Positions 1-63,353 of a stretch of DNA of 64,000 nucleotides are shown piece by piece. The position numbers and the translations under genes were made by a program. Position 1 is the first letter of the stretch. Each line of letters starts with the position of its first letter. Source of the stretch: Hamiltosporidium tvaerminnensis (Eukaryota > Microsporidia > Dubosqiidae); contig CM061255.1 of NCBI GenBank assembly GCA_022605425.2, positions 310,001 through 374,000 of the forward strand, written 5' to 3'. Under the pieces are notes generated by a model. That model saw nothing but the letters and a program-made list of their open reading frames with translations, made no database searches and was not told the origin of the DNA.

Positions 1-797
1 CAGGTAAGCACTGATCAGTAAGCAATTTACCATTTTTAGGTGCATCTATAACTATTAATGTCATTTTTAATTCTTCACTTTGCTCATTTTTATTTTTATT
101 TCAGCTAGGCTAAGTTTATTTAATCATATCGAAAATCCTGGCAAAATCGAATTGTTTATTGTTATACACAAGAATTATGTTCAGCACTATGAATTCCTGC
201 TGTCTCTGTTCTGTTATGTAAAAAACTATTACATGCTATTCTAGCTGTGGATTCTGTCTAGTCCGTAGCAATTTTAGCCAGTCGAATGTGGCAATAAAGT
301 TATTGCAGAGGCCTGAAATCTTCTGTAATAGATATAAGTAGATATTTCTAATTTCTACATAATTATTTGACCAGGTATATGTTTTGATTCAAACAAACTG
401 ATGTATTTTGGTTTATCTTTTTTTTTCGAGTGATACGATAATAAAATATAGATAAACAAATCTGAATTTCTATTAAAGCCATGTATTATTTTTCTTATTC
501 TAATTGAAAATATATTTTATATTTTCAATTTTTTATAATAAAAGTCGTATATTTCATATTTCATATTTCATATTTCATATTTCATATTTCTTAAATTCTT
601 AAATTCTTAAAATATACGCTATAGTCAATCCTTTTATATCTTAGTCTTAAATGAATTTTAAATTTTAATTCCTTCATTCTTCATACTATTTACTCTGCTA
701 GAATCTTATTTTATATCTTATAAATATTTTATGTGTTATTTCCTCCATTTTCTTATTTTAATACAAGTGTTACAAATTTTACTTGTTAAACTCTACA
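1..797. other. AT-rich intergenic region upstream of the ING-like gene
   Basis: No gene is recognisable here. It contains a short simple-sequence tract at 548-612 (listed separately). The ORF of the next gene is open from a TTG at 783, but the first ATG is at 798. No CCC motif sits immediately before that ATG, unlike most other genes in the window. Confidence 0.6.
548..612. repeat. Simple tandem repeats (7-bp then 8-bp unit)
   Basis: About six copies of CATATTT are followed directly by three copies of TTAAATTC-like units. This is low-complexity sequence with no coding potential. Confidence 0.85.
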
Positions 798-11170: not shown

Positions 11171-11552
11171 TTTTGTGTAAGGTTATATATTAGTTGATAT
11201 AAATTCACTTTTTATATAAAAATATAAAAAGATACGAGATATATTAAAATTATAATTTTGATAACGTAGAAGATAAATATTTCAATAATTTTAATTAGAG
11301 ATTACAAATATATTTTTATAAATTTATACTTTTTTAGAGAAGAATTTAGAATATTTTAAATTCAAATTCATATCCTTAAAAGATATACAAATTCTTTTTA
11401 ATTTTAATGGTTTTTAAATTAAACTTAAATCCAAACATTTTCTATGGTTGACTCTATTGTATCTTTTTAAGCCGTTTTGTGTTTTTATGATTATTTTCCA
11501 TTAGATATTTTAAAAATAATATTTGAAAGATATTCAAAGAAACTATAAAAAG
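11171..11552. other. AT-rich spacer between two copies of the element
   Basis: No feature recognised between copy B (+) and copy C (-), whose 3' ends face each other across this gap. Confidence 0.45.
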
Positions 11553-12280
11553 CTTTATTTAATAGTATCACATCTTTATAAAACCGTGGCAAATGTTATA
11601 TTTTTTCACGACATTAACGCAGTTTTGGGTTTAACATAAATAAATGCTACTCCAACATTCCATCAGTACCCCTGAGATACCTAGGTCCCAAAGCTTTTCA
11701 TTTACCAGGTGTGTAGAATCTAATTAATAGGCGAGTCGGTTGCCTGGTGTTCTTTAAAGTCCGTTGCATGGAGTGTAATAGAAGACCGAAGCCCCCCTAG
11801 GCTTCCCCAAGCCTATGCAGCCTTCCCACTTACTCTTCCCTTTTTGAACTCAATAAACTTCTAGTTAAGATATATTTCAGAGATTTACATGGAGTCTACT
11901 TAGACAGTGCAATGCCATACAAACAGGTGTAACCATATATTTAGCTTTCGCAGCTTTAAATAATTTTCTCTTTATATCTCCCAGGCGCTAAGTCTTCCAA
12001 CCCGCGTGAGCAAAGCTAGGTTTCCATGCTTTTATATGGCAATTACCTACTAGTTCAGCTGCGGTCCGCAATCTGGTTGGATAAAAAACTGCAAATAAAT
12101 TCGTAGAAAAAGTTTCGCCATTTCGTGGGCCTTTCCTCTTCATAACAACTCCATAGAACAACTGAAAATGTAGTGTCGTTTTATCTCCAACAAAAATACA
12201 AACAATGATCTACACACCAGTTTCACACACTCATTGCCAAGCAGAAAGTTTTTTAAGTGGTTATTCTTCCACCACCTCAT
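11553..12280 (-). mobile_element. ~730-bp interspersed element, copy C
   Basis: A full-length copy in reverse. The 3' end reads CTTTATTT on the + strand at 11,553 and the 5' end has CTTCCACCACCTCAT at ~12,280. Close to copies A and D over the central block (CATGCAACGGAC and the GGGGGGCTTCGG region in reverse complement). No ORF is conserved. Confidence 0.83.
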
Positions 12281-21785: not shown

Positions 21786-23480
21786 TTATTCTAAGTATAA
21801 AATATCATTACCTATGATTTCTCGTATAACCATTGTAGCATATGCAGATTTTGACAAGGAAAATTCTAAATAAATTATATTATTTTCAATAGAAACGGAT
21901 AAATCAGAAGTTTTTTCAATTAATTTTCGATACCCACCTTTTAAACCTCTTTCAACTTTCAAAGGTATAACTACATCGTAAATGGTATGTAAATCTAAAT
22001 TCTCATCCGTTATAGTTTCTATTTTTTCCTCCAAAGTTTCCTTCTCTTCATAAATTTCTTTCTTAGAATCATATAAAATATTATTGAATATATTTTTATC
22101 AAAAATAAAAACTTCAGAATCTAATTTAATATCTTCTAATTTTTTATGGGAATTCGATATATTATCATTGCCTGAAGTGACTTCTTTTGAAGAAATTTTT
22201 GTTCGTTTCAAAACCAAATCACCCACCTGAATATTTTTGCCTCTTTTTATTCTATCGGATGCCATTTTATTAAAAATATAACTTTGATAAGAATGTAAAT
22301 AAATACTTTTAAGTTCTTTTTTAATATTCTCAATACATTTTTTATCGGACAATCCTCTGCTTTTTCCTTTGCATATTGTTTTTTCAGCTATAAAACGTTG
22401 AGGAAACAATTCATACGCATCTTTAAACTTCTCTTCTTTGTATAAATTTCTTGCTTGTGTGATTTGTTCACTTTCATTAGAAATAGGCTCCATTATGATT
22501 TCCACCGCTTCTTTATATTTTTTTGTTACAATCAATTCACCAATAATATGATTATGCATATTTTTTCCAAACCGTTGATTACCATAATAATTTATAAATC
22601 CATTGTTTAAATACATTTTAATTTTTTCCACATCATAATTATTCTGTAAATTTGAATTTTCCGTCAAAGAATTTTCATTTCTATTCTTCGGACGTAAAAT
22701 TATTTTAAATCGATTTCCTTTTAATGTGCCTAACGATATACCCGAGACACAAGTTCGTATTTTATAAATTGAAATACCATTATTTTCTTCGGAAAGTTTT
22801 AAAGCAATTTGATACAAATCATAAAAGGAAATATCAGTAATTGACATTTTCTGATAAGTAACTGCTCTTTTATCTTTATTTCCACAAAATTTGATAGAAT
22901 TATATGAAATTTTTAAATACGATGCGATTATTTGGCATGCATTTAATGTGTCTCTATTTGTTTTTTTCAATACAAATGAATACTTTTTTGAATTATCAGA
23001 GATATAAAAAACCGAAACAATATTGTTGTCTGTTTTTGTCGATATAAGTGGATGGGATTGCAAAAAACCGTGTAAAACACTTCGATACGTTTTATTTGGA
23101 ATGTAGATTTTAAAAAGCAATTTTCTTTGATTATTTTCTACAAAAAAATTATCAAATTTATTATTTTGTATAGTCTCTATATTTTCTATAGTCTCTATAT
23201 TTTCATTCTTTTCATTGTTTAAAAAATATTTTTGTCGGTTTTGATTAATTGCTTTTACTAGATTTTCTAATTTTTCATCAATTATTTCAATTTTTGCAAA
23301 TTCTCTTATAAATTTAAGAACTTTTACAGCGTTTAAAGTATCAAATATATCTGTTTCCTCACATAATTCATTTTCGTGAATTTCTTGAACAATAAAATCA
23401 TTAAAAAATGTCTTAAGTGAATAATTCTCAACAAAAGGATCGGAATTAAAATATTCAATTATATTTACGTTTTCTAACAT
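21786..23480 (-). CDS. PUS7: tRNA pseudouridine synthase, TruD/Pus7 family
   Basis: 564 aa. It shows the TruD/Pus7 series of motifs: FVLKKTNRDTLNAC (~169-182), the catalytic FCGNKDKRAVTYQ with D203 as the nucleophile, GISLGTLKGNRFKI (~247-260), GFINYYGNQRFG (~294-305), LHSYQSYIFNKMASDRI (~395-411) and a C-terminal PLKVERGLKGGYRKL segment. Pus7 converts U to pseudouridine at position 13 (and 35 in tRNA-Tyr) of tRNAs and in U2 snRNA. The region 80-120 is an Asn/Glu-rich low-complexity insert. The frame is intact. The start is supported by a CCC motif on the coding strand 12 nt upstream of the ATG. It lies about 490 bp downstream of the TrpRS gene on the same strand, not overlapping. Confidence 0.95.
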   Translation of the reverse strand: MLENVNIIEYFNSDPFVENYSLKTFFNDFIVQEIHENELCEETDIFDTLNAVKVLKFIREFAKIEIIDEKLENLVKAINQNRQKYFLNNEKNENIETIENIETIQNNKFDNFFVENNQRKLLFKIYIPNKTYRSVLHGFLQSHPLISTKTDNNIVSVFYISDNSKKYSFVLKKTNRDTLNACQIIASYLKISYNSIKFCGNKDKRAVTYQKMSITDISFYDLYQIALKLSEENNGISIYKIRTCVSGISLGTLKGNRFKIILRPKNRNENSLTENSNLQNNYDVEKIKMYLNNGFINYYGNQRFGKNMHNHIIGELIVTKKYKEAVEIIMEPISNESEQITQARNLYKEEKFKDAYELFPQRFIAEKTICKGKSRGLSDKKCIENIKKELKSIYLHSYQSYIFNKMASDRIKRGKNIQVGDLVLKRTKISSKEVTSGNDNISNSHKKLEDIKLDSEVFIFDKNIFNNILYDSKKEIYEEKETLEEKIETITDENLDLHTIYDVVIPLKVERGLKGGYRKLIEKTSDLSVSIENNIIYLEFSLSKSAYATMVIREIIGNDILYLE

Positions 23481-23966: not shown

Positions 23967-25124
23967 TTATTTTGAAAAAGCAGTAAATTTATCAATTATT
24001 TCATCTGTTAAATTTTCTCTTGCTTTTCTGTAATTTGATATGAACTTTTGTAAAAGTTGAATACATTTTTTTTTCATTTCTCCAGTAGAAATACTTCCAT
24101 CAAGGTAACCTGTTCTGTATTTTTCTAATTCTTCGTCATTTTCTTCAAAATATTTTAAATAATGAAAAGGAACATCAACATCAATATTTCCACCATATTT
24201 TCTATGCTCTTCTAACGTATCCTTTCCCCCTGAAAATGCATATTTATTGATTTTATTTTTTATAACCGAATCGGAATCCGTTAGATATATCGAACTCTTA
24301 GTATCACTTGCTGACATTTTGGTATTCAATCCTTTTAAATCAGGAAGGAATCCTGAATAAAGAGTTGCTGGTTTAGGCTCTTTTAATATACCAGCTTTGT
24401 CTCTGGCTAATCTAAAATAAGGATCTTGATCTATTGCAGCCGGTATAAGACACATCATATTTTTTTCCAAAAAATCAAATGAAGAAGAGAAACAGGGTGC
24501 TATTTCTTTAGAAGGGAACTCTATCTGACCAATATTAGAGGTAGAATCAAATCCAAACACCTTTGTAGCCTCATTGAGATTAATATGCTTAGAAATTCGT
24601 AACGAATTTTTAATAAATTTATATGAATATTCTATATTTGAAAAAATAAAAGTTTTTTGTGGATTAAATCCAAATGCGATAATATCTTTCATATTTTCCT
24701 TTCCGAATTTAATTGAATCTTCTAATGATAAATCCTTCCATAAATATTTTTCATCATCTGTTATTTGAATTACAAGATGTACATCAAATATGTCTTGAAG
24801 ATATTTACAAAAAAGAAATGGAACAGCGTGTCCTAGATGCATACTTTGACTGCTAGGACCTCTACCTGTGTAAAGATAAAATTTTTTGTTCGTTTCAACC
24901 AAATCCAATATTTTATTAAAATCTCGATGTGCAAAAACCAACAAACGTCTCAATAAATGATGAACAGGTTTCTTAATAATTTTTTCTATTCTTTTAAGAA
25001 TAGCTTCGTCAATTTTTTGACATCCAAAATTTTTAATTATTTTTTCGTAGTCAACTGCCATGTTTTTTCCTTCAACGATTTCACCTGTCACTTCCCATGG
25101 TGTTATTTTTTGTTCTGAATCCAT
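23967..25124 (-). CDS. WRS1: Tryptophanyl-tRNA synthetase, cytosolic type
   Basis: 385 aa. Class I aminoacyl-tRNA synthetase of the TrpRS/TyrRS subclass: YTGRGPSSQSMHLGHAVPF (84-102) carries the HIGH-like motif HLGH, IDQDPYFRLARD (231-242) is the eukaryotic TrpRS signature, and GLNTKMSASD (265-274) carries KMSAS, the form of KMSKS typical of eukaryotic TrpRS. It activates tryptophan and charges tRNA-Trp in the cytosol. The length equals the catalytic plus anticodon-binding core; the WHEP domain found in animals is absent, as expected in microsporidia. On the coding strand CCCC directly abuts the ATG. Confidence 0.97.
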   Translation of the reverse strand: MDSEQKITPWEVTGEIVEGKNMAVDYEKIIKNFGCQKIDEAILKRIEKIIKKPVHHLLRRLLVFAHRDFNKILDLVETNKKFYLYTGRGPSSQSMHLGHAVPFLFCKYLQDIFDVHLVIQITDDEKYLWKDLSLEDSIKFGKENMKDIIAFGFNPQKTFIFSNIEYSYKFIKNSLRISKHINLNEATKVFGFDSTSNIGQIEFPSKEIAPCFSSSFDFLEKNMMCLIPAAIDQDPYFRLARDKAGILKEPKPATLYSGFLPDLKGLNTKMSASDTKSSIYLTDSDSVIKNKINKYAFSGGKDTLEEHRKYGGNIDVDVPFHYLKYFEENDEELEKYRTGYLDGSISTGEMKKKCIQLLQKFISNYRKARENLTDEIIDKFTAFSK

Positions 25125-25128: not shown

Positions 25129-25805
25129 TGAAAAGTTCAATAATTATTTTATTTTAATATAAAATTCGAATAATGTAACCTCAAAGTTTGGAGTAAAACC
25201 GATAATTGTTTAATAAAAAATGTATAAAATCTTAAGAATGTACCACATATAAACCTCTTTATATTTGAAGTTTACGTTTTTAAGATTAATAGGATTTCAT
25301 AAATCTGCTCTTAAATTTATAGTATAGCAGCAAAGATACAATTTTTGCTTCAAATCACTGAATAACTTTTTATAGATATTAGAATACAAAAAACAAAATC
25401 ATGAAAATCTATAAACTATAATCAGAAATTTTTAATGGTAGACAATAAATAGCACAAATATACAATTTTATATCCAATCTAAACAATTTTACGCTGTTTT
25501 AAAGATTTAAATTACGAAGTTGATTTGAAATTATATTGTATTTTTCTAATCTTTTAAAGCAGTACCCTCGTTTATTTTTTAAACTAACTATATTAGGTCA
25601 TTCGATTTCGAACGGGTTTCTTACAATTATATTAATTGAATCAAGTTTTTAGAAAGTATTGTTAAATCATTAAATGTGTAGGATTAGAAAATTTTAAATT
25701 CCAAGTGATGTAATCCTTTTTTTAAAACTTAAACATCATACTGCCATGATATTACTTGAACAATTTAAAAGTAATTTAATATTAACAGACTAATTTTTTA
25801 ATAAA
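25129..25805. other. AT-rich gap, nothing recognised
   Basis: No gene, repeat or RNA structure I can support. Confidence 0.45.
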
Positions 25806-26524
25806 CTTTTATTCAAAAATAGCAGATATTTTTAAAAAACAGTGACAAATGTTAGATTGTTTTCATGGCATTTACGCAGTTCTAAATTTAGATAAATAAC
25901 TGCTAAAATATCACACTGTCGGTACATCCTACGATACTTATATCTCAAACCTTTTCATCTAAAAGATGTGTAGAACCTAATTAATATGCGAGGCAGTTCC
26001 ACAGTTCGTTCATGTTCGTTTCATGGAGTGTTACCTAGGTTGAAATCAACCCTGAGCTTCCCAAGACTATGCAGAATTTCATCTTCTTACAATTTCCGAA
26101 CCCAAAAAATTTCTAGCTAAGATATATTTCAGAGACTTACATCTGACCACCTAGAAAGTGTAATGTCATACCAACAGATATTATCGCTACTTAACTCTTG
26201 GCATCAAATAATTTTAATTTTATACCTCCCAGACCTTAAGTATTCTAATCCGGATAAGTCTAGTATCTCTTGCTTTTCGATGAAATTACATACAAGCATA
26301 AGCTTGAGTTCTAACTTAGTTACATAAAAAACTGCAAAATAAATTTGTAAAAAAGGGTTCAAGATTATTAGATTTCCTCTTTCTCTTAATAACTCTGATG
26401 AACCAACCGAAAATTTAGTGTGGCTTTATTACCACCAAAAACCCAAACAATCATTTCATATATTAAATCATCTGTTTTTTTCCAAGCAGAAAGTTTTTTT
26501 TTCGGTTATTATCCTTCTCCTAAG
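25806..26524 (-). mobile_element. ~730-bp interspersed element, diverged copy E
   Basis: Reverse-oriented old copy. Landmarks in reverse complement include TGTAGAACCTAATTAATATG, CATGGAGTGT, AGATATATTTCAGAGA and AAGCAGAAAGTTTTTTT near the 5' end. Many substitutions; no open frame. Confidence 0.75.
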
Positions 26525-28768
26525 TTTTTAATAAAAAAACATATTTTTTACAGAAAGATTTCTGTTTTTACATTCTGTAAATAAATTCTTAGGGATTAAG
26601 TTAAAGAAAACGATCTTTATTCAAAGAATCATAATTTTTTTTTATACTTATAAATAACAATAGCGTATTTTCATTTTATTATATGTGAATTCACCCCTTA
26701 AGTCTCTTATTTTGATCTTATATACGAGTCTTCAGTGTATTTCGATAAGATATTCAATACCATATGTTTTATAGATGACCTCTTTTTTTGTTAGTTATGC
26801 TTTTTATATTGAATAAATTAAAAAAAAATATATTATATTTTTTTAGTTTTTGTAAAAGTATGCCAGTTCGGTCACCGTGAGAAAAACAGCGGAGAATTAA
26901 TAATCTAGACCCGTGAAAAATAATTTCAAAAGGAATATATTTAGTAAAATTACCAGATATGTATCGGAAAGTAAGAGAAGACGAGGTTAACATCGAAAAA
27001 GATGTCTAAATAATATGGTAAAGTATCTAATAACTCATTGTGTGGCAAAGGGGAAATACAACGCGCAGTAGGGAAAAACGAAGAATAAATTTAAACAAAA
27101 CTTAGTTCTTCAAGATCCTAAAGTGCTGCGTTTTTTAGTAAAAAATATGCCACGTTCGCACTAAGAATAACATAACTGAAACTTCATATGAATATTAGTT
27201 GAATACTATTATGATTTTATATGTGTAACATCATCTATGTAAATTCAAAACCATTGCTTGCACCGCAGTTGATTCTTATTTAATACTTTGAATAAATATT
27301 TTAACTTATATAATTGCTAAAGAAACCAGAAGAACTCTAGTTAGAAATTTAGATTACCCTACTTTAATTGATTATAATAGTTTTATATAAAAACATTAGA
27401 GATATATTTGATTACAACTGTTTTGAATTAAATAGACAAATATGTTTTAAACGCTTAAATAAAATAATTTTTGTTACTAATCCTATTTCAAAATGGAATA
27501 ATTTTTTTATCAGACATTTGATTGTCTTGTAGTTACATTAACTCTATATCTTTACCGTAATATGATGGAGGCTAAAATACATTTTAAAACCCTCAAAATT
27601 TAATCTAGTATATTCTACAGCAAAGTATCTCAAAATGAAATTTTATTTTCAATTATTTTACGCACGATATTTTCTTGCAATTCAGAAGATCTTTAATTAG
27701 ATCGTAAAATATATGTTTTATAAATAAATTCCAATTTATTTATTCAAAAAGTAATTAATATCATAAGAAATTTTTCTTAACCATTAGTTTAACCATTTTA
27801 TAAGATAATGTATAGGTTCTTATTCTTGTTATATTTACACATTAGATCTTTAGAACTCCGGAAAATTATAAAAATATAAGTGATACGATATCATTCGTGT
27901 TCAATGAAAGTTTGAATATATTGTTTAAAAAATAAAGCCATCTAAAATTGTATTTATTTGCCATCCGCCAACTTTTAGTAATAAATAATTCATTAATGGA
28001 TATTTTTATTCCTAAAAAGAATATCTCGCAAGTTTTTTTAATTTTGTTAGAACTTAAAGACTTCAATCTTCCAAGGCTCATACAATATATATGTATGTTT
28101 ACTGTTTAAAATAAATACAATCTTTATTTATTAACATTCTTGATGATATTAGACATTTCCATTCCATTGACTGCAAACTCTGAAGTATTGATTAAAATAT
28201 ACGTAAATGAAAATTTTAATACCACTGTAGAAAATATTTGAACTTGATAGATTTAAAAACTTTAATTAACTAAATTTTTTTTTCAAAAGTATGTATCTAA
28301 AATTTAAATTTTTTCTTTTAATACTTTTACACATTATTTTTGTCTTCTAAACCCGACTCACCTTCTATGTTTTTTCAAAGGATTTTTTCGAATGGTCACT
28401 GCAGTTAAAACCAACGTTAAGCTATTTTACCTATTTCCCAAAATCTTCTTTGTTTCTTGGTTCTCAGGAATGAAATATTGGTTTTTAATGTCTTTAAAGT
28501 ACATGCATAAGCTTCATTTATGTTTCATCTTAGCACTTTAATAATTTAAACTAATATAAGACATACGTATCGATCAAAATAAATTATTTCGACGTTCTTT
28601 AAATAATATAGTGATTATTTTTATGTATTATATTTATGGGTAATTAAGCTTTAAGATTTATCTAATAATATTTTGCTCAGGCTGTCGCAAATTTTCGGAT
28701 AAGAAATTATCGAACTCCAAACCTATAAATAAGATTTATTTGATCAAAATACTCCTTACTTCTTTAGT
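26525..28768. other. AT-rich gap with a possible decayed ORF near 26.85-27.15 kb
   Basis: Around 26,850-27,150 the + strand is richer in G and reads as broken basic peptide text in several frames (for example KRNIFSKITRYVSESKRRRG and QNLVLQDPKVLRFLVKNMP). This resembles the basic ORFs of mobile-element relics but I cannot name a family. The rest shows nothing. Confidence 0.35.
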
Positions 28769-29119
28769 TTATTTTTAGTTCGAACTATTTAAAGTACAAA
28801 TGTTTATATTATTTTTAGTTCGAACTATTTAAAGTACAAATGTTTATATTATTTTAGTTCGAACTATTTAAAGTACAAATGTTTATATTATTTTTAGTTC
28901 GAACTATTTAAAGTACAAATGTTTATATTATTTTTAGTTCGAACTATTTAAAGTACAAATGTTTATATTATTTTTAGTTCGAACTATTTAAAGTACAAAT
29001 GTTTATATTATTTTTAGTTCGAACTATTTAAAGTACAAATGTTTATATTATTTTTAGTTCGAACTATTTAAAGTACAAATGTTTATATTATTTTAGTTCG
29101 AACTATTTAAAGTACAAAT
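28769..29119. repeat. 40-bp minisatellite, ~8.8 copies
   Basis: Nine nearly identical units of TTAGTTCGAACTATTTAAAG plus TACAAATGTTTATATTATTT, period 40 (39 in two units that lack one T). Every unit contains the perfect palindrome AGTTCGAACT. The near-identity suggests recent expansion. Confidence 0.95.
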
Positions 29120-31430
29120 TTTTCATAATTCTTTTACTTTAAAAAGTGAAATTTTATTTTTGCTCGATCTAAAATAAATTTATAAGATTCATTGTTCTAC
29201 AGGTTAACATAAACTTGTTTCTTGATATCCAATTTTAATCCACACACTTATGTATCGAGAAATTCTCGAACCGAGTGATTCCCAATTTATTTTTTAAGAC
29301 CGGAACTTCTTTACATTCCAGAATAATAAGTATAGACTTCTAAAAACTGCCTTATGCAGTCATATTTATTCATCTTTAAGCAATTTTGCATATACTTGCT
29401 AAATGCTATATTTTTTTACTTTGCTGATTATCGTAATGATATTTTCCTTCGCACTTCTAATAAAGTTCTACCTTTAATTTTTACATCATTGGAACTGATT
29501 CAAATCTGTTTTATTTGTGTAAATTAATTCTAAAAAAATAGTGATTAAATTTTTGTGGCAATCCTAATGTATAACCTTTACAAAAAAATTATATCAAATT
29601 TAATCTATCATAAACATCATGAGCTTGTATTATCTTCATTTGAAAAAACTATAACAATCAGCCTAGTTTAGAATATTTCTAGTTTAGAAATAAAGTAATA
29701 TTTGCCAAAATTGTGATTGTAATCGATTAGAAGAAGAAATAATGGTTGTTAAAGAGGTAGAAGGAAATTTATAAACATCTACAAAAATTTTAACCAGAAT
29801 TTATTAAATAAAGAAAATTGTAATTGATTATTTGTTGTAAATTTAGAAGATTGCTGATTCTGTATTAGGCGTGAAAACATAATATAAAAACATAGCAGTA
29901 AATTAAAAATGCGTTGCTTTTACACTTAACTTATAAAAAATTTACACAAATAAATTTCACTAATGTTCATAGCAATGGTTACTCTATAAACAACCTAAAA
30001 TAAATTTATTTTTTTGAATCTTTGAATTAATAGTATTAAGCAATTGCATTTTTTAAATTGATATAAAAGCATTGGTGTATTTAGTCAACGTGATCACACC
30101 GATTTTATATTATACTCTTGTATGACATACTTATTACAATCTTTTATCTAAAAAAATCTATGTAAAGATAGTTCTTTATAGAGTTAGGTTTTATATTCTA
30201 ATCAAGTAACAATAATATCTAGTATAAACAAAAAGATTGAAACGGCAGTATAAATATCGATTTGCATGCACCAAAGAAAGTAAAAAATTTAATAATTTTA
30301 AACAAATCGAAACCAAATATATAATATTCTTTCGAACAATTTATTATAAAGTTTTAGAGTTATATGCTTTGAAAAGATCAAAATAGAAATAATCTGATAA
30401 TAAAAAAACAAATTAAAAATTTCAAATCTAACTAGAAGCCTTTCCGAAAATGTAAAGGTGACCTTCGATAATAAATTCAAAAGAATAGAAAAAGTTAGTC
30501 ACAGAAGAAAAAATATTAGAGATAAACAGAAATAAAATCAACATATTCGCCTATAATGTATCATTTGGTTTTCGTATTTTCCAAAACCATAAAATATAAA
30601 TATATATATTCAAAGCAATAAAAAAAACGCATTTGTTTTAATATTAGAAAAATGAATTGTATAAGAAGTAAAAGTTTGTTTGAAAGCTAACGTAACGAGA
30701 GTAAAAGTACCAATTAAATGTTTAAAAGATATTTTACAAAAAAGATTTCTTCAATATTGAAAATTTTAAGGTAGTTTATTTTTTATGATGTAAAAACAAT
30801 AGCAATTTTAATGAATTTCTTAAAATTATTTGTAGAAACAGTGTTTAAAGGTTTCTAGAATAGACCCTAGGAAGATGTTAGAAACTGTATTAATATAGCA
30901 ATATAGATCTTAATTATTTAAGCGACTAAAATCAATGCAAATGCCGAAATTTGAACAAGATCATTATATTGTTTAGAAAAAAACATTTTTTTAATATTTA
31001 TGATATATCAATATCATTCTAAATAAATTTGATTAAAAAAAGATCTTTTGATATTTTTGACATGATAAAATACTTTTTTAATTTATAAAAAAATTCTTAA
31101 CCGTTGTATGTTCGAAGGAAAAACCTGGAAATAGAAAAACAATTTTTTTAAATAGAACATCTTCTTGGAGTTAAATATTAACGAATGTGATATTTATATA
31201 CACAAAGAAAAATTTGATGTTTAGTATTTTTTCTTTTTTAGATATATGATTCGTTAGTAGAGAATGGGTAAGAAAAGAAATTTGAAATAATTTAACATAT
31301 TTAGAATTCTTTATATTAGAAATAAGTTGATTGATTGATTTTATTTTTTATTGGTGTTATATTCTCTAAATATTTTTAAAAAAATTGATTTGGTGTTAAA
31401 ATTACTGTGAAAATTATTTTTTTCGTATAT
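29120..31430. other. AT-rich gap before the rDNA, nothing recognised
   Basis: No convincing ORF or RNA. Composition shifts toward higher GC only from about 31,430, where the rDNA leader begins. Confidence 0.45.
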
Positions 31431-31835
31431 AAAGGATGTTATTTATAGAACTGTTTACCCCAAATCATATGAGAATTAAAATGTCAATAGAAAACACTAA
31501 GAATGAGACAAATCAACCAGAAATTACAATTGCATGTAACCGTAGAAATCAAGTTGATCTAATCAAATTGATCTACAAACGTACTTTCGAATCATTAACT
31601 TAGTTGTTAATTCACGTGATTTAGATCAATGATCAAATCGATATGGTGTTCTAGTTACTTTGACATGTTCAAGTAACAAATTGGTGTTACATATGGTTAC
31701 TGCTCTGATGCAGATTTTGGAGGTTTTCCGTTGTTACTTTGGTTTCTTGTGCTGCTTTATTCATCGGGATTAAGTTATGGACTCAACGAGTCAATTGTGT
31801 GTGATTTGGATGTGACGTGTAATGGTATATTTGTG
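31430..31835 (+). promoter_or_regulatory. rDNA promoter / 5' external transcribed spacer region
   Basis: A ~400-bp zone of rising GC directly before the SSU gene, distinct from the AT-rich DNA upstream. It probably holds the RNA polymerase I promoter and 5' ETS; the transcription start cannot be placed. A 40-codon ORF (31,481-31,603) lies in it but has no recognisable product. Confidence 0.5.
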
Positions 31836-33137
31836 CAACAGGTTGATTCTGCCTGACGAGGATGCTTGTCTCTGGGATTAAGCCATGCAAGTCTGGTGAA
31901 GCGAAAGTGGAACTGCGAACGGCTCAGTAGAACGGTGATTATTTAATCGTGTAGGAAGGATAACCGCGGGAAACTGTGGCTAATAACACGAGTAAGACGC
32001 CGACCCATCAGTTTTATCGTACGGTAAGGGCGTACGATGGCTTTAACGGGTACGGGGGATCAGGGTTTGATTCCGGAGAGGGAGCCTGAGAAACGGCTAC
32101 CAGGTCTAAGGACAGCAGCAGGCGCGAAACTTGCCCAATTGGAGAGAGGCAGTTATGAGACGTATATTTTGTAACCGGGGTAGAATACCGGTGATTGACT
32201 GGAGGGCAAGTCTGGTGCCAGCAGCCGCGGTAATTCCAGCTCCAGGAGTGTCATAGTGCATTGCTGCATTTAAAAGGTCCGTAGTCAGTGTTGACAGGGA
32301 TGCTAGAAGACACTTTCTTCATGGAGTGTATTGGCATTCTAGGTTAGCATGTAGGAGCGGAAGAGGGCGACTGTATTGCGTAGCGAGAGGTGAAAGTTGA
32401 CGACCTACGTAGGACAAACCGAAGCGAAAGCTGTCGTCCAGTACGTTTCCGGTGATCAAGGACGTAAGCCGGAGGAGCAAAGGTGATTAGAGACCCCTGT
32501 AGTTCCGGCCGTAAACTATGCCAACTGGGTGTTACGTAGTGGTACCCACGAGAAATCAAGTATATGGGCTATGGGGATAGTACGATCGCAAGATTGAAAC
32601 TTGAAGAAATTGACGGAAGGACACCACCAGGAGTGGAGTGTGCGGCTTAATTTGACTCAACGCGGGACAACTTACCAGGGCCAGTTGTATGACGAATCTT
32701 TGATGAGTACGACTAAGTGGTGCATGGCCGTTCACAACATGTGAGGTGACTTTTAGGTTTATTGCTGTAATGTGTGAGACCCTCAGCTACGGCGACTGGG
32801 GACTATAAGTTTCAGGAAGGAGGGGGCTATAACAGGTCTGTGATGCCCTTAGATGTTCTGGGCTGCACGCGCACTACAATGTTATTTCTAGAGGTATATT
32901 GTAAAGATAAAGGATAACTCGGTTGGGATTGCGTTCTGTAATGGACGCATGAACCAGGAATTCCTAGTAGTCGCGTGTCACTAACGGGCGACGACTGCGT
33001 CCCTGTTCTTTGTACACACCGCCCGTCGTTATCTAAGATGGTGCTATGTTCGAAGAGGGTTTTCCTTCTGAGGACGTAGGATTAGATTGGATACAAGTCG
33101 TAACAAGGTTGCTGTAGGAGAACCTGCAGCAGGATCA
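31836..33137 (+). rRNA. Small subunit (16S-like) ribosomal RNA
   Basis: About 1.3 kb, the short microsporidian type. The 5' end reads AACAGGTTGATTCTGCCTGA, the 530 loop GTGCCAGCAGCCGCGGTAAT is at ~32,216, then AATTTGACTCAACGCGGG at ~32,649, GTACACACCGCCCGTCG at ~33,012, and the 3' end GTAGGAGAACCTGCAGCAGG ATCA. Ends were placed by these conserved termini and may be off by a few bases. It is the small ribosomal subunit scaffold. The order SSU-ITS-LSU is the usual one, unlike the reversed order in true Nosema. Confidence 0.97.
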
Positions 33138-33173: not shown

Positions 33174-34847
33174 AACTCATACAAGGGATCACTTGGCTCC
33201 GTATCCGAGGAAGGCCGGAATAGTTTCCGAGAACTAAGGCCGAACGGCATTTGTAAATGCCTGACTACCCCCTGGACTTAAGCATATTATTAAGGGGAGG
33301 AACAAAAACTAACTAGGATTTCTGTAGTAGCGGCGAGCGAACAAGAAATAGCCCCGAATGTAAGCCTCCGGGCATTGTTAAGATCGTCGTAACGAATTAC
33401 CGGGACAGGTAAGCCATAGAGGGTGATAGCCCCGTAGTGACGAGTAATGGGCAGAGTAGGGTTGCTTGGTAATGCAGCCTGAAGAGGTGGTGGGTTCCAT
33501 CTAAGGCTAAATATGAGCGGAGACCGATAGCGTAATAGTACAGCGATGGAAAGGTGAAAAGCTAAAAAGTGCAAAGACGTGAAATTGTATTGAGTATCCT
33601 GATAACAGGACCCGTCTTGAAACACGGACCAAGGAGTGCATCTGCATAGCAAGTTAAAGGGGGGTTTCCTTTAAGCGTAGCGAAAGCAGATATAGCTGTT
33701 CGGATGCGACCCGAAGGGCTGTGAACTACACCTGGCCAGGTTGAAGCCATTCGAAAGGATGGTGGAGGACCTAAACTTGTTCTGACGCGCAAATCGATGG
33801 TTTGAGCTGGGTGTAGGGGCGAAAGACCAATCGAACAGCCGGGTAGCTGGTTCCCATCGAAATGTCTCTCAGGACAGCAGACACAAGTTATTTAGTATTA
33901 TGCGGTAGAGGAACGGCGGGATGAAAGGGGAGCAATCTCCACATACCGACGAACTGCGAACGTGTACGTGTTATTCTTGTACTAAAGAATAGCGATTATA
34001 TATGTGTCTAGTGGGCGCGTTCTGGTAAGCAGGACGTGCGAAGAGGGATCAACCTGACGTACTGATAAGGGGCCTAATCTGGTTTTTCTTAAGGCCGTAG
34101 ATGAATTGTGACAGTAGGGCGGTGGCCATGGAGGTTGGCATCCGGTAAGAAACGTGTTGCAACGTACCTACCGAATTCATGTGCGCCGAAAATGGACGGT
34201 ACAAGGCCAGACCCGATGCAGTACTTATAGGTAGATGGGCGTGGTGTATGTGCAGAAGGTTTACCGTGAGGTAAAGTGGAGCATACACTAGTGCTGATCT
34301 TGGTGGTAGTAGTTACAATTCGTGTGTGAATCGCGAAGGCTTCAGGAGAAGGGTTCTTCTAAGATTTAATAAGGAGAAGGTTAGCCGGTCCTGAGATCTC
34401 GACAGGGAATCGGGTTGATATTCCCGAGCCATCTAGGTATTTGGCAACAGTAAATATGGTGTTTACGTCTTAGGCACGACAACAAGGAGGTACCCATTCC
34501 TTGTAGCAGTACTGTATGTAGCGTGTTGTACAGAGCAATACAGGCATATGCAATTGTCTTAGCTGGGATCCGTGAAAAGATACCTTTATGACCTAGATGA
34601 CCGTACCGACCGCAGCAGGGCTCCGTACGGTGTATACCGGAAGCGATAGGACAAACGTTAGTTAGGGAATTCGGCAAATTAGATCCGTAACCTCGGGAAA
34701 AGGATTAGCTCTAAGGAATTAGAACTTTTAGTTACGGGGAATCCGACTGTTTAATAAAAACATAGCTTTGTGGTGGTGTAGTACGTGGACACAAAGTGAA
34801 TTCTGCCCAGTGCCCAGCTGTTAAGACAGGTCGGGCTGTATACGCAG

Positions 34848-34901
<54 letters not shown>

Positions 34902-34998
34902 CCTAATTAGTGACGCGCACGAAAGGAGCAACGAGATTCCCACTGTCCCGACTAACAACCTGCGAACCCACGAGCCAAGGGAACGGTCTTGGCTATGC

Positions 34999-35035
<37 letters not shown>

Positions 35036-35311
35036 GTGACGCCGGGGTCTTGTGCAGCTGTAGCAAGGTGGGGCAACTGAAAGACCACTAGCTGTGCAAG
35101 CGACCCGTATTTGTCAGATGGGGAGTTTGACTGGGGCGGTACATCTGCTAGACTACAACGCAGATGGCCTAAGGGTGGCTAACTTCGGAGAGAAACCGAG
35201 GGTGTAGTCCAAGGGCAAAAGCCACCCTGACGTATTACTACACGGTAATACGAGGGGAAACCCAGGCCTAGCGATCCCATTGCTTACAGAGCATCTAGCA
35301 ATGGGTGACGT

Positions 35312-35343
<32 letters not shown>

Positions 35344-35447
35344 AGCCGAGCGACCATAGCGACGCTGCTTTTTGATTCTTCGATGTCGGCTCTTCCTATC
35401 ATGGTGCAGCAGAAGGCACCTAGTGTTGGATTGTTCACCCACTAACA

Positions 35448-35485
<38 letters not shown>

Positions 35486-35731
35486 TAGTTTTACACTACT
35501 GCTACGGTACTAAGGGAGCAGATGCTAGTACGAAAGGAACGAATCTGCAGGACCTCTTGTCGTGCCTATATCTGGTAAGGTACGGGCTAAGCAACGTCCT
35601 GGCACGGAAGAGCTGAAGGCCTCTAAGCTTCAACGTGGCCCTACTGTACTATCTAGCATGAAGACGACGTGCTTGGGTGCTGCAGCTGTAATCCACAAGA
35701 TCGCGAGTGGATGAGGCTAGCAAGCACTCAT
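33174..35731 (+). rRNA. Large subunit (23S-like) ribosomal RNA with fused 5.8S segment
   Basis: Starts with 5.8S-like GGGATCACTTGGCTCC and continues without ITS2 into LSU domains. Conserved landmarks: CTCTTAAGGTAGCCAAATG (~34,874), TACCACAGGGATAACTGGCT (~35,318), TTCGATGTCGGCTCTTCCTA (~35,379) and the sarcin-ricin loop AGTACGAAAGGAACG (~35,527). About 2.56 kb, the compact microsporidian size. The 3' end is placed at 35,731, directly before a predicted self-cleaving ribozyme; the true mature end has not been seen and could be some bases earlier. Minus-strand ORFs inside are shadows. Confidence 0.95.
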
Positions 35732-35789
35732 GACGAGAGATGATCACCACCTCCACGTGGTTCTCGTTGGGTAACGCCAAGAGTGATCA
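35732..35789 (+). ncRNA. Predicted HDV-like self-cleaving ribozyme at the LSU rRNA 3' end
   Basis: 58 nt that fold into the nested double pseudoknot. P1: GACGAGA (35,732-35,738) with TCTCGTT (35,762-35,768), 7 bp with the characteristic G-U wobble at the cleavage site. P2: TGATCAC (35,741-35,747) with GTGATCA (35,783-35,789). P3: ACC (35,749-35,751) with GGT (35,759-35,761), enclosing L3 TCCACGT. P1.1: CC of L3 with the GG that follows P1, in GGGTAAC. The J4/2 strand GCCAAGA supplies the expected C-N-A-A with C35,777 as the catalytic cytosine. P4 is essentially absent. Cleavage would fall 5' of G35,732, exactly behind the LSU. The fold is seen in the sequence; activity is inferred. Confidence 0.8.
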
Positions 35790-37334: not shown

Positions 37335-37349
37335 AGGTAGATAATAAGC
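37335..37349. repeat. Target-site duplication, 5' copy (left arm)
   Basis: AGGTAGATAATAAGC, repeated exactly at 38,058-38,072, flanking the 708-bp retroelement. Confidence 0.9.
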
Positions 37350-37407
37350 GACGAGAGATGATCACCACCTCCACGTGGTTCTCGTTGGGTAACGCTAAGT
37401 GTGATCA
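37350..37407 (+). ncRNA. Predicted HDV-like ribozyme at the 5' end of a retroelement (left arm)
   Basis: Identical to the LSU-end ribozyme in P1, P2, P3, L3 and GGGTAAC. It differs only in the joining strand: GCTAAGT instead of GCCAAGA, preserving C-N-A-A. The first ribozyme nucleotide is the first nucleotide after the target-site duplication, as expected if self-cleavage defines the retroelement RNA 5' end (known for R2 and other non-LTR elements). Confidence 0.85.
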
Positions 37408-38057
37408 AGCAAAACCCCCTTACGGTTTTATGTTACGACGGAATGTACTATAGTTTTACGTGGCGTTAAGCGCCGTTCCAACGGGAACAGCAAGTTGCTC
37501 AATCGGTGAGCATATTTCTTCTGGGGCGATACAAAGAGGTAAATGCGACTGCGACGCAACGAGATTCTCGGTTTACCTAGGCACTTGTCGATGCTAAAAC
37601 CCTTACTTTAACATCAAGATGAGTCTACCTGAATGTGATTGGATCGAAGATTCCATTAGGAATCAAATTGTGTTTGAAATCTTCTTATACTAAGGAAAAG
37701 AAAGGTATAAAAAGTGCTCTTGGAAGGGGAGTGGCAAGCTGCTGGGCTGCAGCAAATTTGTTCGGCACAGTTAAAGACTTAACAAATCAGAAATGATATG
37801 TTGAAGACTTGACGTGCCGGACGTTAATGTGTAAGTGTGGGATTTTAGGGATTTTTATGTGACCTTCTAGAACCGAAGTCCAAATGTGGATATGGTGGCT
37901 GTACACAGCCGGGTCGGTTTTATTGGATTTTTGTTTTTGAGTGTGGTGCATGGTATGGAAATGAATAGCTTAGTTTCCCTTTAAAAACAATACAACGAGT
38001 AGTGCTGAAAACTTTTTATCAATAAAGCCGAATTTTATTTATTTATTTATTTTATTT
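37350..38057 (+). mobile_element. 708-bp non-autonomous non-LTR retroelement with 5' ribozyme (left arm)
   Basis: Bounded by the 15-bp duplication. Order: 5' HDV-like ribozyme; GC-richer 5' leader; a short ORF start at 37,620 (MSLPECDWIEDS..., 24 codons); then at ~37,712 GTGCTCTTGGAAGGGGAGTG, homologous to the end of the reverse-transcriptase ORF of the retrotransposon at 42-47 kb (GTGCTCTTGGAAAGGGAGTG at 47,285; both read V-L-L-E-x-E-W-Q-A). The 3' UTR ends in a (TTTA)n-type tail. So it looks like the two ends of a LINE joined by a large internal deletion. It is mobilised in trans, if at all. Confidence 0.88.
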
Positions 38058-38072
38058 AGGTAGATAATAAGC
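38058..38072. repeat. Target-site duplication, 3' copy (left arm)
   Basis: AGGTAGATAATAAGC directly after the TTTA-rich tail. Confidence 0.9.
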
Positions 38073-42155: not shown

Positions 42156-42404
42156 TTGTGTTGTAAGGCGCCCATGGGCAAAAGAAAAATATCGGGAGCG
42201 GTTGAAAATCGCAAAAAATCAAGATGTGAGAATACGGGTGTGAAGAGTAGGAATTTCGACGACTTTGTTTCCAGCTCATCGAGGACTAGCCACCCTCGAG
42301 TTGTGAGCCCAATCGACTGTTTTTTTCGGCGTCTTCGAAACAGGAGGAGTGTGCGGCAGCCACGCACAAGGAGAGTAAAAAGTGTACAGATAATAGGAAT
42401 GTAA
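42156..42404 (+). pseudogene. 5' ORF fragment of the retrotransposon
   Basis: 82 codons, rich in Arg, Lys and Ser (GKRKISGAVENRKKSRCENT near the start). It ends 20 bp before the ORF1 ATG in another frame. It may be the true start of ORF1 displaced by a frameshift, or a separate small ORF. No domain recognised. Confidence 0.45.
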
Positions 42405-42424
42405 AGAGTTTTTTTGGGACAAGC

Positions 42425-43723
42425 ATGCCAAAGCACACACGGGATGTGCCGCTGACCAGCCAGCGAAGTTTCCCGGAGGAGAAAGAGGCACAGACTTTGT
42501 CTGTTCTTTATGCACTTGCTTCTAAGAAAATAACACTACTTGAAAAAAGAGTGGAAAAATTAGAAGAAGAGGAAAAGAGATATAAAAAAACTCTTATGTT
42601 GGCAAAGACCAACTCGATTGCTTTATGGGTACACTTTAAAGGAATTGAGAAGCTACGTAAAGTACCTAAAAGGTCGCGTAGGTGCCGTACTCACAAGTAC
42701 ATGATAACGGCTGTAGCACCTGTTTCCTTGGTTAGGCTAGAGGCAGGAGCCAGAGACCCTCAGGCTAATCCAGCAGCCAGTGAGTTAGTCTGCAATGCTG
42801 CAGAACTAACAGAGAAACCACTCGAGCAGAATTTGGTGGTAAATGAGGCGAAATCTCAGTCTTTCGGGCCAACTTTGGCTGCACGATCTGCATTGGCAAA
42901 AGCTCGATCTTTGGTTAAACAGATCGTGTTAAGGACAGGCATTTTTACTGATCTGACTGCAAATGCTGTTGACTCTCTTGCTGCTGGAATCTGCCCAGTG
43001 GAAGTGCAGATCTGCAACGCAGCAGAATCTCAAGGCTTACAAGCTGAACGTGCAATGAATGTAAGTCATCAAGGGGCAAGGCCTGTTGAATGTGGTACGG
43101 GCAATACCACACTGCCTCCGATAGCAACTCCTCGTTCTATCGAAAAAAATTTACCTGAAAAGACTTCCGTAAGTGCTTCGGGAAAAGGTCTTAAGGATAA
43201 AAATAAGGAATTATTTGAGAGCAAAGCAACTGGTAACCCAGCCAGTAAACCGAGAGCCGTCAAATTGCAGACTGCTAAAAAGCCTTCCTTCGATCGTACT
43301 AAGGCACCTTCGAAGCAGAGTAGAGGGAAAATTAACCTAAACAGAGCACAGTGTGAGGATGTTGTGCAAGGCAAATCACCATTTGTCTTGAATAGGTTTG
43401 TGCTCCTTTACTTAGTTGGAGTTAAAGTGAACAAACCCGCTTATTTAAGAGCAGTCTTGGAGAATGGGGGCGTTTAATCTCACTATGTAAAGCACGTAGG
43501 CTTCACTAAAGAAGGCCTGTTAGAGTTGCTTGTTAATGCTAACAGTGTGGATAAAGTTAAAGCCATTTTTACAGGTTTTAAAGGTGTTAAGACGTTTGAT
43601 AATTATCTTAACAAAGGCAGTTTCGAAGAGATTGGAGAGCGGTTATCTGAACTTAAGCGCAGACTCTCATGGGTCGAGCGATTTAAAGATAACCCGCCGG
43701 TTAGGAGGTTCCTTAGATTATGA
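42425..43723 (+). pseudogene. Retrotransposon ORF1 (coiled-coil, basic), broken by one stop
   Basis: 350 codons from ATG 42,425 to a TAA at 43,475-43,477, then the same frame continues open to 43,723 with SHYVKHVGFTKEGLLELLVN and WVERFKDNPPVRRFLRL. Residues ~25-60 form a heptad-like coiled coil (KKITLLEKRVEKLEEEEKRY), followed by a basic stretch KVPKRSRRCR. This matches the role of ORF1 proteins in binding the element RNA. It is one nonsense change away from open, so decay may be fairly recent. Confidence 0.75.
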
Positions 43724-44139
43724 AGCATATTTGCGCTCGGAATGCCTCTCAAGAAGCCTCGAAAATCTTCTACGGATTAGAAGATGTGGTACTTGAGGAG
43801 CCAAAGAGCTCCTCTAGCCTATAGTCAGGACTGTCAGAACTGTTGACACCTGCCAATAGATATAGCCGTGCAAAGCAGGTCCCGCGGTATACTCTGTCTG
43901 GGGTGTACCGCATAGGCATCGTAGTGTTTTTGCTAAAACACTAGAGACGAGAGGATACAAAGGTAAGCCTGTCAAGCGAGTTATACAGCGAGATGGACGT
44001 AAACGACTTGATGTGACTGTTGAGAGTGGGATAGACCCGGAAACAGTGCAAGCTGTGAGTAGGAAACATCTTGGGTACTGCAAAACCCATACACTAGGGA
44101 GAAAAAAGCTGTCAGAATTTGCACGGAATCGTATAGTAA

Positions 44140-47100
44140 TCTTAGATTACTTACGCTGAATGTAAATTCCTTTGGATCAAAACGAGAGGAGGTTCTAATG
44201 CTGCCCGGTAAACTCCACCCAGACATTCTATGTCTCCAAGAGACATTACGCTACACAAGGAATTCTCGGAACGTTATTCCGGGATACGAGGTATTTGAAA
44301 GCTTTGCCAAAAAGGAGGAAAAAGATGGTAGAGGACTGATTTTAGCTGTGCGTCGTAAGTTAGATCTTACGTTATCTTCAGTTGAAGTACATCCTAACTT
44401 CTTAGCTGGAATTGTTTGTGGCAAAAAAGCGACTGGTGGCTAGTTAATAATGCTTGTTGTTAACGTGTACATTCCTCCGAAATGTTCACTATATGGCAAC
44501 AGAGCGAAAACGCTCGAAGCTCTAGGATCTTTTCTTGTTAGTAAAAACAAGAAAAACGGTTTGGATGATATTCTAGTCATGGGCGACTGGAATATGACTC
44601 CAGAAGAGGCTGCTAGGTTCCTGGCTGTCAACAACCTCTATTGCACGAATAAATGGTTATTCGAAGCACCGCGAGCTACACGTGCAGCAGCACACGGCGC
44701 CAATAGATGCATTGACTCTGCCTGTATCCGAAAAGAGAGTGGCGGAGGTAGTTGAGGTGCAAAGGAAATGGGATATCTCGGTTCACCTTCCTGCTACTGT
44801 TGACGTTAGGGTGGACACGCTCACACGAGCTGTACGCAAGAAAGCGCTCTTTTTACGCAAGTTTGTGGAGCAGTCACTTGCTGAAAAGCTTATAAGCTGT
44901 CCGACCTGGAACAGTTTCGGTCACAATACGGATCTTGGGATTTATGTTGCAGAAACTGTTAAAGAAGTAGTAAAAAAGTTAGGTCTTGAAGGTACTTTTT
45001 CAGATGGAAATAGTCTTTTTTTGCCTCGGAAGCTTAAAAAATCTATTAAATATAAACGGAGAGTTGCTCCCGAAATGAGAGCCAGCCGAGCTCATCCGAA
45101 CGCCTATGCTGTCCTCAAACGAAAGTGCGAGGAAATGAAGCGTCTATATAGGCGGCAGCTGAGAATAAAGTGGGCGCGAAAAGGTATTGTGGCGGCAACA
45201 AACCGCTGCATGAGAGACGTGTGGCAGTGGACGAGGAGGTCTGCTGGAATGCCCAAATTCTCGGCTGCCAATCGCACGGTTTTGGATGAAAAAGGCCAAA
45301 TTGCTTCGGATGAGACGACAGTGTTGCAGGTCTGGTACAACCACTTTCGTTCCTTAGCAACAATGAATGATGAGTTACAGAGCAAAGACACTTAAATGGA
45401 GTGTCTTATTGAAGATAACGGAACTCATTAGAATCATTTGATTGCTGTGCAAGAGGTTATTTCAGCGCTGCACAAGTCAGCAAGCAACAAAGCATGTGGT
45501 ATAGATGAGGTAACAGTAGAAGCGTACAAAGCTCTACTAATGGATACTCATGGCGTAAGTCTGATGGATTAGCAGATTTTACATGTGCTGAATGACGCCT
45601 GGACAAATAGAATACCTGACAGCTGGAGAGTGTCAGTCATAGTACCGGTACCGAAGAAAGGTGATTTACGAAAGCCTGGAAACTACCGCGGAATATGTCT
45701 GATTAACACCTTTCTTAAACTGCTGTGTAAGGTTGTGGAACGCCGAATGCGTTTGTATGTTGAGAATAATAACCTCTTGTGCCGGGAACAAGCTGGTTTT
45801 CGTACTCGAGAGGAATGTGTTGCTCAGGTGGCAACTCTTTTGGAAATTCAAAGGAGAAGATTCATTCGAGGTAGAGAGACAGTTTGCCTATTTATCGATT
45901 TCGAAAAGGCTTACGATAGAGTTCCTAATGATCTACTCCTCTTGAGACTAAAAGACAAGGCTATTCTGGAAAACTTCTGAGATTCCTTAAAGATCTGTAG
46001 ACTGATCTCCAGGTTGGTGTTAAATTAGGCGATAAAACAACAAGCCTATTCCCATATAATATCGGTCTGCGCCAAGGCTGTCCGTTATCACCACTGTTAT
46101 TCGATCTTTTTATCGATGAAATTTTTAGAGGTGTTAACGGTATAACATGCGAGGGTCTTAATTATAGGGTTCCGGGTCTGTTGTTTGCCGATGACACTGT
46201 CCTGTTCGGTGATGATGTGGCTGCCGTACAACTCAGTATGGATAGATCATGAGGTGGTGTAATACCTGGGGAACGCGTATTAATATAGATAAGTGTAGGT
46301 TGTTACTTCCTCCAGGTCTTACAGGTAACGTAAGGATAGGTGAAAAAGCAGTCCCGGTGGTCGAAACCTACAGATACTTAGGCATTGTTTTGAACCGCAC
46401 GTTTTCTCTAAAAGAAATGCTCAATGGGAGAAAAAAAGCTGTGTTTGCGGTCCGAAAAATGCTATGCCATTCCTCTGAAGGTCAGAAGTTCTGCTTTACT
46501 TTAAACTTCTGATCATAAAGCATGCATTATACCAATTGTAATGTATGGGAGCGAATTGTGGGGAATGAGCAAGGTCAGAATAGTATCTGTAGGTTGCGGC
46601 GTTACACGTTCTTTGGCAGCAGCTTTTGGATGCGAGAGAATTTTGCCCAGCTGGCAGTTTTCAGAGAGTGTGAGATCCAGCCTTCATATGAAAAGGTAGC
46701 TATGTCACGTGTAAGAGGCTTCTTGAAATCGCAAGAAAGCAGAACGATCATCCGGGACTTGCTAAATGGTAAGTTTACAGCAGGAAGAGAACGTGAGTTA
46801 CTCAAAACCGAATCTGGAAGAAAGCTTATACTGGAAGTCCTTTATCGGGTTTGAGTAACAAAAAGAATGGCCCGTAAATTAAAGAGACTATTGTTAAAAG
46901 GCAAGACCGAGCCGATAAGTCAGTTATAGGTGGCTTACGTAAAAACTTCGGTCTTAATAGTTGATATAAGTGGATATAAGTGGATCTACGCAGAGCTAAA
47001 TAACAGGGTGTTAGCTAGAAGTATGAGGATACTGCGTAGATTCAGAATAGGACTGGTTAAATTTAGTCCGCAACTGGCAGCTTTAGGAAGTTTGCCGATT

Positions 47101-47322
47101 AGGTATAGGGAACGCTGTCTATGTTGCGAGGAACCAGTCCGAGAAACTGTAAGCCATCTAGTGTTCGTGTATAAGAGGTGGAAAGTGGAGCGATGGATGT
47201 TTACGGCTCAGGTTACGAGAAGAGTTGTAAAATGTTTGAAATCTTTTGATGCTGTGGGGAATTTAGGATTGAAAGCGTTAGGAGTGCTCTTGGAAAGGGA
47301 GTGGCAAGCGCCGCAGTTCTAA
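44140..47322 (+). pseudogene. Retrotransposon ORF2 (endonuclease + reverse transcriptase), multiply broken
   Basis: Endonuclease: RLLTLNVNSFGSKREEVL (~44,146), then PDILCLQET (catalytic-type E, ~44,218) and VMGDWNMT (~44,576), the AP-endonuclease D-x-N motif. Reverse transcriptase: CGIDEVTVEAYK (~45,496), VPVPKKGDLRKPGNYRGI, the catalytic motif IDFEKAYDRV (~45,894), GLRQGCPLSPLLF (~46,066) and LLFADDTVLF (~46,178). C-terminal: CLCCEEPVRETVSHLVF (~47,119), a zinc-knuckle-like motif, then EREWQAPQF and stop. Breaks seen: stops at 44,441, 45,393, 45,429, 45,570, 45,998 and 46,927, and frame changes near 44,720, 45,965 and 46,240. Confidence 0.88.
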
Positions 47323-63295: not shown

Positions 63296-63353
63296 TGATC
63301 ACTCTTGGCGTTATCCAACGAGAACCACGTGGAGGTGGTGATCATCTCTCGTC
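63296..63353 (-). ncRNA. Predicted HDV-like ribozyme at the LSU 3' end (right arm), one-base variant
   Basis: Same as 35,732-35,789 except that the strand after P1 reads GGATAAC instead of GGGTAAC. P1, P2, P3, L3 and the catalytic C are unchanged. The changed G is the third of the run; the two Gs thought to form P1.1 remain. Confidence 0.78.

Follow-up and report, generated by a model that had tools for sequence, protein, structure and literature searches.

A candidate HDV-like ribozyme directly behind the LSU rRNA genes of Hamiltosporidium tvaerminnensis, nearly identical to the 5' end of a SINE-like element

The 3' ends of LSU rRNAs are made by protein nucleases, and the rDNA of Hamiltosporidium tvaerminnensis, which infects Daphnia (water fleas), raises the question of whether an RNA can take over this task. 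The locus lies in a window of 64,000 nucleotides (positions 310001-374000 of contig C10), and the genome that was searched comprises 21,638,905 bases in 17 contigs. The rDNA of the window is arranged in the order SSU-ITS-LSU, and its LSU gene occupies positions 33245-35731 of the forward strand (Rfam RF02543, 1742.8 bits), with a 5.8S-like part that, as judged by eye, starts slightly upstream. The 58 nucleotides that adjoin the 3' boundary of this gene, 35732-35789 (+), are a candidate for a self-cleaving, P4-less ribozyme of the HDV-like class, as indicated by Rfam profiles, a structural descriptor and a pairing check.

The pairing check of the sequence found all pairings of the HDV-like double pseudoknot, P4 excepted. 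P1 joins 35732-35738 to 35762-35768 in seven of seven positions (G1-A7 with U31-U37, the terminal G-U included); it starts at the predicted cut site, and its 3' strand stands immediately 3' of that of P3. P2 consists of seven Watson-Crick pairs between 35741-35747 and 35783-35789 (nucleotides 10-16 with 52-58) and crosses P1, giving the first pseudoknot. P3 is a helix of three base pairs, ACC with GGU (35749-35751 with 35759-35761), and the second pseudoknot is P1.1, in which the CC at 35753-35754 pairs with the GG at 35769-35770. In the HDV-like consensus the joining strand reads N-Y-A-A and the catalytic C lies within C-N-A/G-A. Here the joining strand is GGGUAA, whose GUAA fits the first of these motifs, and C46-C47-A48-A49 fits the second; the predicted catalytic residue is C46 (C35777), and the predicted cut falls between U35731 and G35732. 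The loop L3, UCCACGU (35752-35758), has the pyrimidine-C-C sequence plus the U and G for a reverse wobble, a feature of HDV-like ribozymes described in the part of PMC3774820 available to us. An earlier note on this DNA had listed P1, P2, P3, L3, P1.1 and the C-N-A-A strand at these positions, and every pairing that it named was confirmed.

The inventory in that note was right about 35732-35789 and otherwise incomplete: it missed three more copies within the window, at 63353-63296 (-), 37350-37407 (+) and 61734-61677 (-), as well as the absence of P4. Just C44 and G45 stand between GGGUAA and C46, and the segment 35732-35789 has no P4 stem; P4 is usual in HDV-like ribozymes but variable, and it does not define them. 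The nested minimum-energy fold is calculated at -15.4 kcal/mol, as compared with -8.7 for P1 plus P3 and -5.7 for P2, and is predicted to compete with the ribozyme pairings. The linker between P1 and P2 measures 2 nt at the LSU end, which calls for caution because very short linkers were slow or inactive in mosquito HDV-like ribozyme constructs; in the available text of PMC4908430, a linker of 0 nt was inactive, 1 nt gave little activity, and 3 and 7 nt gave more.

Profile searches and the descriptor differ in what they say about this fold. In a 1-kb search the LSU-end candidate scored 26.4 bits with RF00094 (E 0.18) and 24.9 bits with RF02682 (E 0.031), below the respective gathering cut-offs of 50 and 44. 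Genome-wide, RF02682 picked out 13 places and none besides at E up to 10 (61 of 553 candidates scored), the same places as a DNA search; 12 of the 13 copies scored 24.9-27.3 bits and the thirteenth 22 bits, with E values from 0.048 to 0.74. The Rfam profiles would not have been convincing by themselves: RF02682 also matched below threshold in 8 of the 14 control genomes, and RF00094, run on this entire genome, found nothing at E up to 10 and had some matches in 4 of the 14 controls. The descriptor consists of the ribozyme parts listed above for 35732-35789, and on both strands of the 64-kb window it found four sites, every one a copy of that sequence. In simulated sequence with the same dinucleotide frequencies it gave 2 matches in 711 Mb with LSU composition and 1 in 726.5 Mb with window composition, that is, 3 in 1,437.5 Mb (~1.44 Gb), and none with a P2 of 7 bp plus a P4 region of at most 10 nt. 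This background rate rules out a chance match to the HDV-like fold. Outside this genome, the ribozyme sequence was not found in the prokaryotic genome contigs searched, and a match in a viral contig was rejected by eye, since its letters past the shared 20 misfit the ribozyme. A conserved pattern for the LSU 3' ends of relatives likewise found none in prokaryotic genome contigs and none in viral contigs, collections that are uninformative on microsporidia.

The DNA search located 13 copies of the ribozyme in the genome, nine directly behind an LSU gene and four as the 5' start of a SINE-like element. Every one of the nine LSU 3' ends that were found continues into the 58-mer at the same base. 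The LSU-linked ribozyme is identical in eight of these nine copies, and the ninth, behind the second LSU gene of the window (63296-63353, -), carries a single change, G40 to A, outside the set of paired and core positions. Repeat counts for the rDNA came to 10 regions upstream of SSU, 9 ITS regions and 9 LSU 3' ends, each of them a lower bound. The 2025 paper PMC12449221, in the portion available, describes ten rDNA operons in this species, at five places and tail to tail, with LINEs between them. Contrary to the published ten operons, one arm of the fifth pair seems to be without its LSU, because the tenth SSU-upstream region, at 1238176-1238716 of contig C1 and thus outside the window, has no matching ITS or LSU 3' end.

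Several other features accompany the rDNA in the window. A tandem repeat with a unit of ~80 bp lies upstream of the rDNA unit (28763-29139; 96% identity between copies shifted by 80), and a dispersed repeat of ~86 bp at ~29727-29812 is matched at least 32 more times across many contigs, with 78-84% identity, in a search that scored 40 of 430 candidates. The first part of the window holds a family of ~730-bp repeats, 70-91% identical and in both orientations (4323-5051, 11545-12275, 20491-21223 and 25803-26517), a gene for tryptophanyl-tRNA synthetase that shares 99% identity with its H. magnivora counterpart (23967-25124), and, on the reverse strand, an ordinary gene with a tRNA pseudouridine synthase D (TruD) domain (21786-23480; 224.8 bits).

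The conservation of the segment was judged from an alignment of the nine units from -900 to +420 relative to the LSU 3' end. Variable columns number 4 of 300 at -300..0 and 1 of 58 in the ribozyme, and then rise to 5 of 6 at 58..64, 22 of 36 at 64..100 and 142 of 316 at 100..400; the units differ pairwise by a mean of 0.2% over the last 300 positions of the LSU, 0.4% over the ribozyme and 19% over 64..100. At the rate seen over +64..+400, where 164 of 352 columns vary, the probability of one or fewer variable columns in 58 would be 8e-15 if columns are treated as independent. The spacer upstream of SSU (31300-31840) is 99-100% identical across ten copies, and part of the ribozyme's conservation is therefore unit-wide homogenisation. 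What speaks for a function is where the conserved unit stops, one base past the last P2 pair, rather than conservation alone. The pattern of change inside the ribozyme points the same way. The variable positions among the intact LSU and SINE copies are 40, 44, 47 and 51, all within the 13 of 58 positions that lie outside pairs and core; the chance of all four avoiding pairs and core is 0.0017, or 0.0012 with the L3 G counted as core, for a core set that follows the general HDV-like consensus and was drawn up once the copies were already known. C46, A48, A49, UAA and the UCC..G of L3 are invariant across the 13 intact copies, and in the four distinct intact versions GUAA and C-C-A-A change at 40 and 47 alone, both of them N positions. 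The helices are invariant among the intact copies, which hold no compensatory base-pair changes and for that reason provide no covariation evidence.

Would a cut at this position leave a usable LSU rRNA? When the last 77 nt of the LSU are folded, the final helix is closed by AGCACUCA, with a single U between it and G35732; in a longer fold two bases intervene. Because the predicted cut is 1-2 nt past the last LSU helix, cleavage at U35731/G35732 would need little or no trimming. The earlier note had put the predicted cleavage site exactly behind the LSU, and the ribozyme starts at the same base at all of the LSU ends found. The yeast protein enzymes cut farther away: in the available parts of PMC8708148, the RNase III Rnt1, guided by stems in the 3' spacer, acts at sites 14 and 49 nt past the 3' end of 25S, and the RNase III Pac1 cuts 41 and 83 nt downstream of the mature end. 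A six-frame profile search of the H. tvaerminnensis genome gave no candidate for an RNase III domain (PF00636); the same kind of search produced one in 8 of 14 control genomes and found the RNase_T family (PF00929) once in this genome. RNase III is thus likely to be absent from the genome, a statement short of proof because a six-frame search takes no account of introns and may overlook genes that have diverged strongly.

New in this analysis is the finding that a SINE-like element of ~710 bp begins, at its very first 5' base, with nearly the same ribozyme, in two independent insertions. The copy at 37350-38059 (+) is made up of the ribozyme (37350-37407, +; C47T and A51T relative to the LSU copy), a unique middle, a LINE-related 3' part and an ATTT-rich tail. 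It is flanked by a left target-site duplication, GTAGATAATAAGC, at 37337-37349 (+) and a right one at 38060-38072 (+), and the site is empty in four other unit arms. The same insertion recurs in the other arm of the inverted repeat, with its ribozyme at 61677-61734 (-), and a degenerate LINE copy occupies the centre of the repeat (42174-47320, +; edges approximate). The four SINE-like ribozyme copies represent two insertion events, on C10 and C17, each in both inverted-repeat arms, with target-site duplications of about 13 nt and about 15 nt, respectively, and empty sites in four other unit arms for each. Compared with the empty sites, both intact insertions begin precisely at ribozyme G1, as expected if the copied RNA had been cut there, and the SINE-like element therefore behaves like R2 or NARTc. 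Its first 62 nt are 95% identical to the LSU-end ribozyme region, and the two segments of its 3' part, 322-585 and 672-709, match the 3' end of the LINE at 69% and 92%, respectively. On contig C1 a copy of the LINE, beginning close to its first ATG, carries domains for an endonuclease and a reverse transcriptase; the LINE is the likely source of mobilisation. With its target-site duplication, its LINE-shared 3' end and its ribozyme 5' end, 37350-38059 has what would be expected of a LINE-mobilised SINE with a 5' ribozyme. A third insertion, on C14, is decayed and was left out of the insertion count; it also starts near G1. Its right-arm copy, 5' ribozyme included, differs mostly by small deletions as judged by eye, which are due either to genuine decay or to incomplete polishing of the assembly there. 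A ribozyme model search over 22 loci yielded 11 matches, each a known LSU or SINE copy, and passed over the decayed copy on C14.

The near-identical ribozyme at the start of a nearby retroelement gives substance to an alternative raised in the earlier note, in which the segment behind the LSU is the remnant of a retroelement; in its fullest form, a leftover 5' end was propagated through concerted evolution and plays no part in maturing the LSU. The 95% match over the first 62 nt fits such an origin, as do the homogenised spacer upstream of SSU and the clustering of LINEs and SINEs between the tail-to-tail operons, which the available part of PMC12449221 also describes. The sequence behind the LSU copies does not look like an insertion, however. 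When three units were compared, nothing behind the ribozyme resembled the SINE body significantly; by eye, the sequence 3' of it is an AT-rich spacer, and no ORF of at least 150 aa lies between 25124 and 42425. Nor was a target-site duplication found in the window's unit when the 20 nt before the ribozyme were compared with the sequence behind it: the longest exact suffix was 5 nt, against a mean of 5.05 and a maximum of 7 in 60 shuffles and 15 nt in the SINE positive control. An R2-type retrotransposon behind the LSU was rejected on the same grounds (no element body in three units, no duplication in one). Furthermore, truncation of retroelements normally removes the 5' end and seldom leaves just that end, and the conserved block stops with the ribozyme. 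Since the LSU copy tested was found without element body or target duplication, a plain retroelement remnant is unlikely; and with neither a body nor a repeat of the preceding 20 nt behind it, the LSU ribozyme does not appear to be a decaying insertion, although it may be an old, trimmed one. We accordingly regard a leftover with no part in LSU maturation as unlikely.

A structured element of the 3' spacer might also resemble the HDV fold and be non-catalytic for rRNA, acting as a hairpin for a processing protein or a Pol I termination factor. The lower-energy nested hairpin fold would suit this role, as would the yeast precedent of spacer stems that guide Rnt1 (PMC8708148, as far as available), but the background rate of the descriptor, the invariance of the core nucleotides in the 13 intact copies, the lack of a detected RNase III domain and the SINE 5' ends at G1 all argue against it and make it very unlikely. 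Least probable is a ribozyme that is active but whose cut is incidental, serving to free downstream read-through RNA as LINE or SINE templates while other nucleases trim the LSU. The intact SINE insertions and the C1 LINE copy do lie downstream of the LSU and in the LSU sense, and R2 elements use their ribozyme in a like manner (PMC3774820, in the part available); against this, the ribozyme is present at every LSU end found, even where there is no downstream SINE carrying an intact ribozyme, and the predicted cut coincides with the end of the last LSU helix.

The explanation that we prefer, and consider probable, is that a compact P4-less HDV-like ribozyme within the rDNA unit makes the 3' end of the LSU rRNA and replaces the RNase III cut. 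It is favoured because the structure matches, the position is constant at all nine LSU ends found, conservation drops in a step, the element 5' ends fall on the same base and no RNase III domain was detected. The sites that vary also avoid pairs and core, and on the evidence of sequence the earlier note's proposal that a ribozyme ends the LSU is thereby strengthened. The ribozyme would cut the nascent transcript between U35731 and G35732, leaving an LSU with a 2',3'-cyclic phosphate and a downstream RNA with a 5'-hydroxyl, and this cut would stand in for the cleavage that an Rnt1-type RNase III makes in the 3' external spacer. A nearly identical ribozyme forms the 5' end of a LINE-mobilised SINE-like element, in the manner of R2 and L1Tc, and the two uses would share an origin by exchange in either direction. 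Catalysis in vitro and in vivo, the identity of the cut with the mature LSU end, its use for LSU maturation and the replacement of RNase III are what we infer from these observations. We also lean, with somewhat less confidence, towards the broader proposition that in this microsporidian lineage an HDV-like ribozyme shared with a mobile element replaced the RNase III step and became the normal catalyst of LSU 3'-end formation.

Minimal HDV-like ribozymes lack P4. Those of the human microbiome were reportedly described by Riccitelli in 2014. The copies reported here have the compact HDV-like core in common with these ribozymes and with RF02682, whose profile picks out all 13; they differ in scoring below its cut-off of 44, and the RF02682 side has no known rRNA role. 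A close parallel in rDNA is R2, whose HDV-like ribozyme is likewise co-transcribed with LSU rRNA, cuts at or near the junction of rRNA and element, and defines the 5' end of the retroelement RNA (PMC3774820, available part). R2 sits within the 28S gene, however, whereas the present ribozyme follows the LSU 3' end at each of the nine copies found, and no element body was seen behind it. L1Tc/NARTc and SIDER of trypanosomatids resemble the SINE-like element in carrying the ribozyme 5' of a LINE and of its non-autonomous partners (PMC4035085); their 77-nt hallmark doubles as a promoter, and the available text of that paper makes no tie to an rRNA end. Rnt1 and Pac1 likewise separate the LSU precursor from downstream RNA, but according to the part of PMC8708148 at hand they are protein enzymes that cut downstream of the mature end, whereas here an RNA is predicted to cut at the end itself. 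Neither a microsporidian HDV-like ribozyme nor one that forms an rRNA end turned up in the literature searched, which covered few subscription journals.

If the proposed role is correct, it would add a new route of rRNA maturation, in which catalysis by RNA frees the large rRNA of each ribosome. One catalytic RNA would then be common to a mobile element and a core cellular gene, and the arrangement would offer a clue to how reduced genomes manage without RNase III.
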